NCBI GenBank assembly: GCA_016218495.1
Contig: JACRDU010000065.1
Coordinates: 1 to 61,223 of the forward strand
Length of the DNA stretch: 61,223 nucleotides
Source: Elusimicrobiota bacterium
GTDB taxonomy: Bacteria > Elusimicrobiota > Elusimicrobia > UBA1565
Reading direction: 5' to 3'
Part shown: positions 6,271 to 11,221 of the stretch, in pieces
How positions within the stretch are numbered: the stretch's first letter is position 1
Layout: each line of letters opens with the position of its first letter
Made by a program: the position numbers and the translations under genes
The notes under the pieces: generated by a model
Told to the model about the DNA's origin: nothing
Seen by the model: the letters and a program-made list of their open reading frames with translations, nothing else
Databases searched by the model: none

Positions 6271-7590
6271 ATGCGGATCGGAGAGCGCCTCGACGGACTC
6301 CCCCTGTCGCCGTTCCATTGGCGCGTGGTGATAAGCTCCGGGCTGGGCTGGATGTTCGACGCGCTGGATTCCGGCCTGGTCGCCTTCGCCCTGCCGCTGG
6401 TGGCCAAGGAGTGGAGCCTCTCCCCCGGCCAGGTCGGCAGCCTCGGCTCGGCGGGCCTGGCCGGGATGTTCGCGGGGGCCGTGCTGGTGGGCTCCCTGAC
6501 CGACCGCTACGGCCGCAAGACCCTCTTCCAGGCCACGCTTGCGGTGTTCAGCGTGGCCACCGGGCTGTGCGCGGCGGCCTCCGGCTATTTGTCTCTCTTG
6601 TCGATGCGCTTCTTGGTCGGGGCGGGCCTGGGAGGGGAGCTGCCGGTCGCCAGCACCTTGGTCAGCGAGCTCTCGCCGCGCGAACACCGCGGCAAGCTGG
6701 TGGTCGTCCTGGAGAGCTTCTGGGCCTTCGGCTGGGCCGCGGCCGCCGTCGTCGCCTACCTCCTCATCCCGACATGGGGCTGGCGGGCGGGCTTCCTCAT
6801 CGGCGCGCTGCCCGTGCTCTATGTGCTCTGGCTCAGGCGCGCGGTGCCGGAGTCTCCCCGCTTCCTGGAGTCCGCCGGCCGCTTCGAAGAGGCGACGGCC
6901 GTCGTGCGCCGCGTGGAGGCCGAATGCGGCCAGCCGGAGGTCCCGTTGGAGCCCACGCCAGCCGCGCAAAAGGGCCGGGCCGGGGTCGGCGCCCTCTGGG
7001 CCGCCGGCTATCGGAAGCGCACGGCCATGCTGTGGGTGCTCTGGTTCGCCATGGTCTACTCCTATTACGGCATCTTCATCTGGCTGCCGTCGCTCTTGGT
7101 CGCCCAGGGCTACGGGCTGGTGAAATCCTTCCAATACACCTTGGTCATCACGGCGGCCCAGATCCCCGGCTACTTCAGCGCCGCCTGGCTGGTGGACCGC
7201 CTCGGGCGCAAGCCGACCCTCTCCTTGTACATGCTCGGCTGCGCCGGCTCCGCGTTCGCCTTCGGGCGCGCCGAGGGCGGAGCCCAGGTCATGGCCTGGG
7301 GCTGCCTCGTCTCCTTCTTCAACCTCGGCGCGTGGGGAGTCGTGTACACCTATACCCCGGAGAACTATCCGACGGCGCTGCGCGGCACCGGGTCGGGTTG
7401 GGCGGCCGGCATCGGCAGGGTCGGCGGCATCCTCGCCCCCATGGTGGTCGGCCGCCTGCTCACGGCCGCGCCCGGCCGCCAGGAGCTCATCTTCGCCCAG
7501 TTCGCCGCCGTCGTGCTCGTCGGCCTCGCGGCCGTCCTGGCGCTCGGCGAGGAAACCAAAGGCCGCAGCCTGGAGGCCGCCTCCGCATGA
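6271..7590 (+). CDS. MFS transporter, NiaP/sugar-acid-type
   Basis: A 439-residue major facilitator with twelve predicted transmembrane segments in two six-helix halves. The MFS signature [13 protein letters not shown] after TM2 (near residue 75) and PESPRF at the central loop (near 193) place it in the sugar/metabolite:H+ symporter group that includes the niacin carrier NiaP and aromatic-acid carriers. The substrate is not predictable. It starts 9 bp after the RND gene and its TGA overlaps the ATG of the methionine sulfoxide reductase gene, so it sits inside the efflux-to-repair operon. Confidence 0.85.
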
Positions 7591-8600
7591 TGAAGAACCT
7601 GACCTTGGCCGTGACGATGATGATGGCGCCCATGACCCATGCGGCGCCGGGAGCCCGCAAGGAAATGCCCGACTACAAGAAGCCGCCGCTCGAAGAGCTG
7701 AAGAAGAGGCTGACCCCGCTGCAGTTCGAGGTCACCCAGAAAGAGGGGACCGAGCGTCCCTTCGACAACGTCTATTGGGACGACCACCGCCAGGGCATCT
7801 ATGTGGACGTCGTCTCGGGTGAGCCGCTCTTCAGCTCCGCCGACAAATTCGACTCGGGCACGGGCTGGCCCAGCTTCACCCGGCCCTTGGTGCCCGCCAA
7901 CCTTACCGAGAGGGTGGACAAGGGCTTCTTCACGACGCGCACCGAGGTGCGGTCCAAGCACGCCGACTCCCATCTCGGCCATGTGTTCCCCGACGGCCCT
8001 AAGCCGACGGGCCTGCGCTACTGCATGAACTCGGCCGCGCTGCGCTTCATCGCGGCGGAGGACCTGGAGAAGGAGGGTTACGGCGAGTTCAAGGCCGCCT
8101 TCAAGGTGGAGGGGAAGAAGGAGACGGCCGTCCTGGCCGGAGGCTGCTTCTGGGGGATGGAGGACATCATCCGCAAGCTCCCCGGCGTGTCGGCCGTGGA
8201 CGTGGGCTACACCGGCGGCAAGGTCGACAACGCCACCTACGACAAGGTGAAGGCCGGGGGCACGGGCCATGCCGAGGCGGTCCGGGTGGAGTTCGACCCG
8301 GGGCGCATGTCCTACGAGCAGCTGCTGGGCTACTTCTTCCGGATGCACGACCCGACCACCCTCAACCGCCAAGGCAACGACATCGGCGATTCCTACCGCT
8401 CGGCGATCTTCTACGCCTCCGACGCGCAGCGCGCCACGGCCGAGAAGGTCAAGGCGGCCGTCGACGCCTCCGGGAAGTGGAAGAACCCCGTGGTCACGCA
8501 GATCGTCCCGCTGAAGAAATGGTGGAAGGCCGAGGAATACCACCAGGACTACCTCGAGAAGAACCCCGGCGGGTACACCTGCCACTGGCTGAGGGATTGA
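7587..8600 (+). CDS. Exported bifunctional methionine sulfoxide reductase, MsrB-MsrA fusion
   Basis: A 337-residue fusion that repairs oxidised methionine of both stereochemistries. Residues 1-20 form a signal peptide, so it should work in the periplasm. The MsrB domain spans about 34-160 with SGTGWPSF and catalytic Cys146 in RYCMNSAA; the Cys pairs that bind zinc in some MsrB proteins are absent. The MsrA domain spans about 178-335 with catalytic Cys187 in [14 protein letters not shown] and the HAEAV segment. The chosen ATG overlaps the MFS stop. No thioredoxin or DsbD-like electron donor is next to it. Confidence 0.93.
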
Positions 8601-9073
8601 TGGGGCTGGTGCTGGCCGCCCTCATGGCGCAGGGGGCCTCCGCCGCCGCGTACCGTTTCGTCTACGACCCGACTCCGGAGGTCGGCCTGCCGGCCGGCGC
8701 CAGGGCGGCGGCCGGCGACACGGTGGACCAGGGGCCGCTCCGGGAGGTCGTCGTGCCCGAGCGGCTCCACTCCGTCGTCATACGCTGGTACGACCCGAAG
8801 CGCTTCGCCGGCCTGCCCGAGGTGGAGGTCTTCCTGGTGGGGCTCTTGGGGGCCAAGAGCGGCGAGACCGCCACGTTGCCGCGCTGGGCGGAGGAGCTCG
8901 GCGTCCCGATCGTGGTCGCCGAACTCGTCTTCAAGGACGGCAAGGTCGGGCGCTGGCGGGTCTGGCCGTACCGGTCCGCCTACCAGGGGCCGGACCTGGG
9001 CTGGTGGTTCACCAACTGGGGGAAGGACGGCGCGCCGCTCTTCGAGCCGCCCGGCAAGCGGGGGCTCCCGTAA
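8600..9073 (+). CDS. Small exported protein of unknown function
   Basis: A 157-residue protein with an N-terminal signal peptide (about 1-16, [17 protein letters not shown]). I do not recognise the family. The mature part is Trp-rich near the end (DLGWWFTNWG) with two plausible beta-rich halves and no cysteines. The ATG shares one base with the MsrB-MsrA stop (TGATG), so the two are cotranscribed and probably translationally coupled. A role beside periplasmic oxidative repair is possible only from this context. Confidence 0.7.
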   Translation: MGLVLAALMAQGASAAAYRFVYDPTPEVGLPAGARAAAGDTVDQGPLREVVVPERLHSVVIRWYDPKRFAGLPEVEVFLVGLLGAKSGETATLPRWAEELGVPIVVAELVFKDGKVGRWRVWPYRSAYQGPDLGWWFTNWGKDGAPLFEPPGKRGLP

Positions 9074-9089: not shown

Positions 9090-10514
9090 ATGAGCGTGTC
9101 GGCGCTGGAACAGCTCTACCGGTCGGCCTTCGGCCGCGCTCCCGAGGCCGTGGAGGCGCTGAAGGCGGACGGGTCGGCCCGCCGGCTCTTCAGGATGTCC
9201 GGCGGCGGACGCAGCGTCATCGGCGCGCTGGGCCCCGATGCCGCCGAGAACCGCGCCTTCCTGTCCTTCTCCCGCCATTTCCGGTCCGTCGGCCTGAACG
9301 TGCCCGAGGTCTATGCCGAGGACGCCGGGCGGAACGTCTACATCGAGGAGGACCTGGGCGACACCACGCTGTTCCAGTTCCTGTGCGCGAACCGCGACGG
9401 GGCCGACATCGCGCCGCAGGTCGTCGAGCTCTACCGCAAGGTGGTCCGCGCCCTGCCCCGCTTCCAGGTGGACGGCGCGAAGGGGCTCGACTATTCGGCG
9501 TGCTACCCCCGCGCCAGCTTCGACAAGCAGTCGATGCTCTGGGACCTCAACCACTTCAAATATTACTTCCTGCGCCTGGCCGGGGTCCCCTTCGACGAAC
9601 AGGCGCTCGAAGACGACTTCCAGCGCTTCGCCGGCTGGCTGATCGAGGCCCCCAGGGACTACTTCCTCTACCGCGACTTCCAGTCCCGCAACGTGATGGT
9701 CCGCGACGGCGAGCCCTGGTTCATCGACTATCAGGGCGGGCGCAAGGGCGCCCTGCAGTACGACATCGCCTCCCTGCTCTTCGACGCCAAGGCCGACCTG
9801 CCCTTCGAGCTGCGCGGGCGGCTCCTGCGCGAGTACCTCGAGGCCGTGGCGGAGCGCGTGCCCGTGGACCGGGCGGCCTTCATGGAGCGCCTGCCGGGCT
9901 TCGTGCTGGTGCGCATCATGCAGGCGATGGGAACCTACGGCCTGCGCGGATTCTACGAGCGCAAGGTCCACTTCCTGCAGAGCATCCCTTTCGCCATCCG
10001 GAACCTCGAGCGCGTCCTGGAATCCCACGAGCTGCCTCTGGAGCTGCCGGCCCTGTCGGCGGTCTGGCGCAGCCTCATCGGCTCGGAGCATCTGCGCCGG
10101 CCCGGCACCGCCTCGATGGCGCTGACGGTGCGCCTTCAGAGCTTCTCGTACAAGGCCGGGATGCCCGTCGACGACAAGGGGCACGGAGGGGGCTTCGTGT
10201 TCGACTGCAGAGCGCTGCCCAACCCCGGCCGGGACGCCGCGTTCGCGCCGCTGACCGGGCGGGACGCCGCGGTGGCGGAGTTCCTGGGCAAGAGCCGCGA
10301 GGCGGCTGACTTCCTGGACCGGGCCGCCGCTCTGGTCGAGTCTGCGGTCGACAACTACCGGAGCCGCGGCTTCACCGACCTCTTCGTGGCCTTCGGCTGC
10401 ACCGGGGGCCGCCACCGCTCGGTCTATTGCGCCGAGCGGCTGGCCGAACGGCTCCGGCGGCGCGGCGTGCCGGTCGAGCTGTCCCACCGCGAGCTCGGCA
10501 AGGCCGCCGCGTGA
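9090..10514 (+). CDS. AmgK-like sugar kinase fused to a RapZ C-terminal domain
   Basis: A 474-residue two-domain protein. Residues 1-330 are an APH-fold small-molecule kinase like AmgK (anomeric MurNAc/GlcNAc kinase): catalytic loop with D196 and N201 in YRDFQSRN, and metal-binding D213 in FIDYQGG. Residues about 343-470 match the RapZ/YvcJ C-terminal domain, with FDCRALPNP (371-379), PLTGRD and the signature GCTGGRHRSV (436-445). In E. coli this RapZ domain binds glucosamine-6-phosphate and partner RNA; the RapZ N-terminal P-loop domain is absent. The next gene is MurU-like and overlaps its stop (GTGA), matching the AmgK-MurU peptidoglycan sugar recycling pair. That the RapZ part senses an amino sugar is inference. 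Confidence 0.85.
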   Translation: MSVSALEQLYRSAFGRAPEAVEALKADGSARRLFRMSGGGRSVIGALGPDAAENRAFLSFSRHFRSVGLNVPEVYAEDAGRNVYIEEDLGDTTLFQFLCANRDGADIAPQVVELYRKVVRALPRFQVDGAKGLDYSACYPRASFDKQSMLWDLNHFKYYFLRLAGVPFDEQALEDDFQRFAGWLIEAPRDYFLYRDFQSRNVMVRDGEPWFIDYQGGRKGALQYDIASLLFDAKADLPFELRGRLLREYLEAVAERVPVDRAAFMERLPGFVLVRIMQAMGTYGLRGFYERKVHFLQSIPFAIRNLERVLESHELPLELPALSAVWRSLIGSEHLRRPGTASMALTVRLQSFSYKAGMPVDDKGHGGGFVFDCRALPNPGRDAAFAPLTGRDAAVAEFLGKSREAADFLDRAAALVESAVDNYRSRGFTDLFVAFGCTGGRHRSVYCAERLAERLRRRGVPVELSHRELGKAAA

Positions 10515-11221
10515 AGGCGATGGTCCTGGCCGCGGGGCTGGGCACGCGCCTGCGTCCGCTCACCGACTCGACCCCGAAGTGCCTCATCGAGGTGCAGGGG
10601 ATGCCCCTGCTCGAGCTGGCGCTGCGGCGCCTGAGCGCGGCGGGGGTCCGGGAGGCGGTCGTCAACGCCCACCACCACGCCGACGCGGTCGCCGCCTTCG
10701 TCGCGGCCTTGGGGCCGCGCCTGGGGATGCGCCTCGAGCTGTCCCGCGAGAACCCCGTCCTCGAGACCGGGGGGGGGCTCATGCGCGCGGCGGATTTCTT
10801 CGACGACGGCAAGGCCTTCTTCGTCTACAACTCCGATGTGGTGACCGACCTCGACCTCAAGGCGCTGATGGCGGCCCAGACGGCCTCGAAGGCGTTGGCG
10901 ACCCTGGCCGTGCTCGACCGTCCGAGCGCGCGCAAGCTGCTCTTCAAGGAGGGGCGCCTGGTCGGCCGCGCGGAGAAAGCGGCGCCCCCCGGCGCGGAGG
11001 CGCTGGCATTCTCGGGCGTGCATGCCTGCGCGCCCGAGTTCCTCGGGCGCGTCATCGAGGACGGCGTCTTCTCGCTCACCGACGTCTGGCTCCGTCTGGC
11101 CTCCGAGGGCGCCCTGATCGCGCCGTTCCGCCACGACGGGGGCCTGTGGGCCGACATCGGCGACCCGCGCAAGCTCGAGGACGCGCGCCGCCTCGTCGCC
11201 GAGCGCGGTCTTCCCCTCTAG
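10511..11221 (+). CDS. MurU-like sugar-1-phosphate nucleotidyltransferase
   Basis: A 236-residue protein with the nucleotidyltransferase signature LAAGLGTRLRPLTDSTPKCL at residues 5-24 and a Rossmann-like GT-A core; no C-terminal beta-helix acyltransferase domain is present, as in MurU. In Pseudomonas MurU makes UDP-MurNAc from MurNAc-1-phosphate supplied by AmgK. The GTG start overlaps the kinase stop by four bases, so the pair is coupled, which supports this role over mannose- or glucose-1-phosphate use. ETGGGL (near 80-85) is the usual substrate-loop region. Ends in TAG. Confidence 0.85.
   Translation: MKAMVLAAGLGTRLRPLTDSTPKCLIEVQGMPLLELALRRLSAAGVREAVVNAHHHADAVAAFVAALGPRLGMRLELSRENPVLETGGGLMRAADFFDDGKAFFVYNSDVVTDLDLKALMAAQTASKALATLAVLDRPSARKLLFKEGRLVGRAEKAAPPGAEALAFSGVHACAPEFLGRVIEDGVFSLTDVWLRLASEGALIAPFRHDGGLWADIGDPRKLEDARRLVAERGLPL

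Follow-up and report, generated by a model that had tools for sequence, protein, structure and literature searches.

An AmgK-like kinase fused to a RapZ C-terminal domain and followed by a MurU-like gene: a putative cysteine-dependent MurNAc-6-phosphatase

The C-terminal domain of E. coli RapZ binds glucosamine-6-phosphate (GlcN6P) with a KD of 10 nM, as measured by SPR, and functions as a sensor; the basic RNA-binding C-terminal tail of the protein is reported to occur only in Enterobacteriaceae (PMC7073468). A pocket composed of H190, T248, G249, H252 and R253 binds sulphate or malonate (PMC5737377). The H190A mutant is inactive, the exchanges C247A and C247S both abolish activity, with a catalytic SH suggested by the authors, and the density in crystals with GlcN6P was interpreted as probably that of a chemically transformed product (PMC9841335). 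Given that a cysteine is essential and that the ligand may be transformed, the biochemical role of this domain is unsettled even in E. coli. Phosphatase activity has been reported for B. subtilis YvcJ, the responsible domain not being stated (PMC7525490), and for Xanthomonas HpaP, which is cited alongside RapZ homologues in a passage that likewise names no domain (PMC6640185).

The locus described here resembles AmgK and MurU of Pseudomonas in that a homologous APH-fold kinase is directly followed by a MurU-like uridylyltransferase. It differs in that the kinase carries a RapZ C-terminal domain (RapZ_C) and reaches roughly one tenth of the score that the AmgK equivalog models require. With RapZ and YvcJ the fusion shares a C-terminal domain of the same fold and with the same phosphate loop, but it lacks their P-loop NTPase domain and the basic RNA-binding tail and has Gly in place of H190. 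A literature search found no paper that mentions a kinase-RapZ_C fusion and none that joins RapZ and AmgK; the pairing, which is widespread, seems unstudied.

The fusion gene and its MurU-like neighbour

In the window, that is the whole stretch of 61,223 nucleotides of Elusimicrobiota DNA that was analysed, we assign the following features:

9090..10514, + strand: fusion gene, AmgK-like kinase plus RapZ C-terminal domain, 474 aa (intact ORF, Pfam, family-wide conservation)
9090..10079, + strand: kinase part, residues 1-330, APH fold (Pfam APH, phmmer and Foldseek to 3csv)
9672..9692, + strand: kinase catalytic-loop motif RDFQSRN, residues 195-201 (conservation in the family, alignment with 3csv)
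10125..10496, + strand: RapZ_C domain, residues 346-469 (PF22740, AlphaFold model, match to 5o5s)
10227..10229, + strand: G380, aligned with H190 of E. coli RapZ (Gly throughout the fusion family)
10395..10421, + strand: phosphate-binding loop GCTGGRHRS, residues 436-444, form C-x2-G-x2-R-S (alignment of domains)
10511..11221, + strand: MurU-like nucleotidyltransferase, 236 aa, GTG start (MurU models, solved structures, synteny)

The initial annotation had described a kinase of residues 1-330 joined to a RapZ_C domain that bears an intact CTGGRHRSV signature, with no RapZ P-loop domain and in direct overlap with a MurU-like gene, and each of these points holds. In a Pfam search of the intact ORF only APH (PF01636, residues 22-252, E 1.4e-11) and RapZ_C (PF22740, residues 346-469, E 2.2e-36, 125 bits as compared to a gathering score of 27 bits) were matched, and the RapZ N-terminal P-loop family was absent; with the full-length RapZ model PRK05416 the protein reaches 113 of 244 bits and stays below the cut-off. 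The signature lies within GCTGGRHRSV at residues 436-445, and the stop codon of the fusion (TGA, 10512-10514) is overlapped by 4 nt by the GTG start at 10511 of the MurU-like frame, which ends at 11221. An assembly or frameshift artefact is ruled out, since the full-length fusion is conserved in many genomes of several phyla and since both halves of the gene differ from their nearest relative mostly at third codon positions. Immediately upstream of the fusion a small frame (8477-9073, + strand) is found that has no Pfam or NCBIfam match.

Apart from RapZ, two AmgK models are the best NCBIfam matches of the kinase half, yet with 56.5 of 500 and 50.9 of 550 bits it stays below these curated cut-offs, so that 'AmgK-type' is to be read as homologous and not as an NCBI equivalog. 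Its closest solved structure is 3csv, both by phmmer (E 1.1e-18) and by Foldseek, where it ranks first (E 2.3e-13). RDFQSRN and IDYQ are invariant among 51 aligned family members and conform to the APH-fold motifs RD-F-x3-N and ID-[FY]-Q; among 100 proteins RDFQSRN is at least 97% conserved, and it aligns with RDFHAQN of 3csv. The kinases of the fusion type form a clade separate from the standalone AmgK-like kinases of other sampled Bacteroidota genomes. One such standalone kinase (L197:5150-8324, genome G292, which lacks AnmK) adjoins a MurU-like protein whose C-terminus is extended; a further gene there presumably encodes a relative of NamZ (DUF1343).

For the downstream frame the MurU models NF045761 and NF045697 score best, again below their cut-offs (136 and 117 bits as compared to 250 and 370), and MurU 4y7t is the closest solved structure (E 8e-31), followed by 8hhd. 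The protein lacks an extra C-terminal domain. Across phyla, nearly every locus examined has a murU-like gene either immediately 3' of the fusion or separated from it by no more than ~330 bases. The coupling of an AmgK-like kinase with MurU, as initially annotated, is thus supported by model matches, by the match to 4y7t, by gene overlap and by synteny. Since both equivalog cut-offs are missed widely, the two names are statements of homology; nevertheless, homology and synteny make it likely that the pair works in anabolic MurNAc recycling.

Fold, phosphate loop and pocket of RapZ_C

The AlphaFold model of the RapZ_C domain (pLDDT 94.4, pTM 0.89) superimposes on 5o5s with Z 20.8 and an rmsd of 1.4 over 123 aligned residues. 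Among the matches listed, the best outside RapZ are phosphofructokinase and other alpha/beta folds (Z ~6.5), and tyrosine phosphatase folds do not appear. In an alignment of 122 fusion-type and 22 canonical domains the loop GCTGGxHRS is essentially invariant in both families: C437, T438, G440, H442, R443 and S444 are identical in all 122 fusion-type domains and G439 is in 121 of them. Conserved together with the loop in both families are S351, F352, D361, D372, R374, N378, P379, G390 and H466.

The form C-x2-G-x2-R-S is the tyrosine-phosphatase signature, and the position of the loop (C-x5-R-[ST]) in our model, between the strand 430-437 and the helix 443-457, is likewise that of the corresponding loop in Cys-based phosphatases. 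The protein tyrosine and dual-specificity phosphatases thus share with RapZ_C a C-x2-G-x2-R-[ST] loop between strand and helix; a match in overall fold was not seen among the structures listed. In the literature, HCX5R is given as the tyrosine-phosphatase signature (PMC6355987).

Four of the five GlcN6P pocket residues of E. coli RapZ are kept in the fusion-type domains. The fifth, H190, is lost: the position is Gly in 122/122 domains, and it varies in canonical RapZ too (N/H/Y). The fusion-type domains have fixed features of their own, namely GGG at 366-368, which is an insert relative to RapZ and YvcJ, C373 in 120/122, a DCR signature and an aromatic residue at the position of R238. In a domain tree, which rests on a short alignment and has many open forks, a branch with 99% SH-aLRT separates them from canonical RapZ_C.

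Spread, fission and retention of the domain

A full-length match to the fusion at E <1e-149 was found in 37 of 199 sampled Elusimicrobiota genomes, the window genome included, and a scan of named genomes yielded 80 fusion loci from Elusimicrobiota, Bacteroidota, Gemmatimonadota, Verrucomicrobiota, Calditrichota, Marinimicrobia and others. To the question raised with the initial annotation of how widespread the fusion is, these searches answer that it occurs in several phyla and nearly always beside murU.

Among 392 sampled Bacteroidota genomes, 55 contain a fusion-type kinase. RapZ_C is fused to it in 40 of these, encoded by an adjacent separate gene in 8, located elsewhere in 6 and apparently missing in 1; the domain is therefore kept in 54 of 55 genomes, six times unlinked. 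In G233 and G214 the gene order is kinase, RapZ_C (133-135 aa, with its own ATG), murU, and a like split arrangement is present in G297, G483, G412, G467, G510 and G479. The solo RapZ_C of G233 has 133 aa and is encoded at L126:2491-2889. In G527 RapZ_C adjoins murU while the kinase lies ~560 kb off, and in the related genomes G473, G586, G508 and G582 a solo RapZ_C is located directly 5' of an MFS transporter gene (L206:2776-4493, L208:2663-4382, L209:2630-4441 and L210:4301-5898). The sole loss in the kinase clade is seen in G211 (L143:5590-7301), which has a kinase-murU pair and in whose genome RapZ_C, AnmK and MurQ were not detected. Four solo RapZ_C domains were included in the domain tree and branch from three separate points within the fusion clade, for which three fissions are the simplest reading. 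Since three lineages thus encode a separate RapZ_C of ~135 aa, sometimes more than 500 kb away, neither a covalent link nor strictly intramolecular feedback is needed, and RapZ_C works in trans once split from the kinase.

Canonical RapZ was found in none of a smaller Bacteroidota sample. The window genome in turn contains, in addition to the fusion, a separate full-length canonical RapZ on another contig (L001, L146; G000:C63, around 6967-7326), which is of the NPHY form. It is preceded by what we take to be an HprK-like gene and followed by genes that presumably encode PTS EIIA/IIB-like proteins.

RapZ_C as enzyme or sensor

The distribution of AnmK and MurQ was followed in 70 Bacteroidota genomes, picked by kinase and RapZ_C status and not randomly. 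AnmK is present in 17 and MurQ in 11 of the 24 genomes with RapZ_C, both are absent from all 26 genomes that have an AmgK-like kinase but lack RapZ_C, and the 20 genomes with no kinase contain AnmK in 18 and MurQ in 20 cases. Among the 35 genomes with AnmK, MurQ is missing in 7 of 17 with RapZ_C but in 0 of 18 without it (Fisher p 0.003); hence all seven genomes with AnmK and no MurQ have RapZ_C. In Elusimicrobiota the fusion is likewise present in G135, the only clear case there of AnmK without MurQ. This is the pattern that a role as MurNAc-6-P phosphatase predicts. However, apart from G211 the kinase-only, AnmK-free genomes essentially belong to a single clade, and the contrast that they provide amounts to about two independent cases. 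Six genomes with RapZ_C have neither AnmK nor MurQ.

We tentatively favour the possibility that RapZ_C is a putative Cys-dependent MurNAc-6-phosphatase. AnmK would make MurNAc-6-P, the RapZ_C half would take off its 6-phosphate with C437 as nucleophile and the CTGG backbone, H442 and R443 gripping the phosphate, the kinase half would then phosphorylate the resulting MurNAc (perhaps also GlcNAc) at C1, and MurU would convert MurNAc-1-P to UDP-MurNAc. The last two steps we infer from homology and gene order. RapZ_C would thereby replace MupP of Pseudomonas, which acts at the same MurNAc-6-phosphate step but is an HAD-family phosphatase with no sequence kinship to RapZ_C. In favour of this proposal, the loop conforms to C-x2-G-x2-R-[ST], as found in Cys-based phosphatases, and is all but unchanged in the 122 + 22 domains, where the polar residues D361, D372, R374, N378 and H466 are conserved along with it. 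The requirement of E. coli RapZ for C247 and the transformed GlcN6P density (PMC9841335) point in the same direction, as do the activities reported for YvcJ (PMC7525490) and, in the passage cited, HpaP (PMC6640185). Moreover, retention of RapZ_C after fission is as expected for a pathway enzyme.

Several observations speak against it. A tyrosine-phosphatase fold was not seen for RapZ_C among the matches listed, E. coli RapZ uses this loop to bind both ligand and RNA, and 7 of the 24 Bacteroidota genomes with RapZ_C lack AnmK. Most Elusimicrobiota carriers of the fusion, the window genome included, have a MurQ that can already consume MurNAc-6-P. The simple argument that the fusion fills a gap left by MurQ therefore does not hold in the window genome, where both AnmK and MurQ are present. 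Their genes lie near each other on the same strand (L145:5962-8976; G000:C131), with genes for an alpha/beta hydrolase and a nucleoside diphosphate kinase beside MurQ. A distance of 12 kb between anmK and the fusion in G207 (L221) is probably due to chance, since unrelated genes lie between. A profile search for MupP gave zero genomes above cut-off but also missed Caulobacter, which has a MupP homologue (PMC13046382), and is hence non-discriminating.

The main alternative is that RapZ_C binds a phosphosugar, be it GlcN6P or another amino-sugar phosphate, leaves it unchanged and acts as a regulator of the AmgK kinase, in cis in the fused form and through contact in trans where the two are separate. 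We regard this as a real possibility and the two readings as nearly tied. The 10 nM affinity of the E. coli domain for GlcN6P (PMC7073468) and the invariant phosphate loop agree with it, and retention along with the kinase would also be expected for a dedicated regulatory subunit. Against it are the exchange of H190 for Gly in all fusion-type domains, with their own invariant GGG and near-invariant C373, the location of RapZ_C, which in G527 adjoins murU at a distance from the kinase and in four genomes neighbours the MFS transporter gene, and the hint from E. coli at a chemical change of GlcN6P (PMC9841335). The initial annotation had proposed GlcN6P sensing with feedback within one polypeptide. 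This is not supported, given the Gly at H190 in 122/122 domains and the separate RapZ_C in three lineages, nor is GlcN6P feedback established, the window genome having a separate full-length RapZ as well. Since canonical RapZ also varies at H190, transfer of the GlcN6P function from E. coli is weakened rather than refuted by the loss of this residue. An enzymatic role fits the loop motif and the co-occurrence at least as well as sensing does, and we prefer the phosphatase on account of three points: the retention of RapZ_C in trans, the loop with a cysteine that is required, and the distribution of AnmK and MurQ.

RapZ_C is a candidate for the MurNAc-6-phosphatase of genomes with AnmK but no MurQ. 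The fusion family moreover offers many natural cases in which RapZ_C is uncoupled from RNA regulation and linked with a defined sugar pathway, and the solo proteins of ~135 aa allow a direct test of phosphosugar binding only versus turnover. A broader proposal, which we consider rather doubtful, is that RapZ_C is an unrecognised Cys-dependent sugar-phosphate phosphatase domain, which in Bacteroidota, Elusimicrobiota and further phyla would serve the AmgK-MurU pathway as its MurNAc-6-phosphatase, whether fused or unlinked, and that the regulatory and RNA roles of RapZ in Enterobacteriaceae are a repurposing.

It is improbable that kinase and nucleotidyltransferase act on another sugar, such as a heptose or mannose derivative, with RapZ_C serving that pathway. 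AmgK and MurU scores far under the equivalog cut-offs and the fact that relatives such as mannose-1-P guanylyltransferases also score would be in line with this, but MurU is both best model and best solved structure, the two AmgK models lead for the kinase besides RapZ, and most carriers have AnmK. That RapZ_C of the fusion serves as an adaptor that binds RNA, like its E. coli counterpart, is very improbable in spite of its having the fold of the RNA-binding domain, and we rule it out because the RNA-contact residues are lost in the fusion-type domains (R238 is replaced by F428, there is wide variation at K194, R196 and R211, and Q or R usually stands at K251) and the window's fusion protein has no basic C-terminal tail.

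Just 3' of murU many Elusimicrobia contain a YhcH/YjgK/YiaL (DUF386) gene (L023:5086-5565, with equivalents in 21/59 loci). Its product is related to N-acetylneuraminate anomerase and might supply the kinase by acting as an anomerase of MurNAc.
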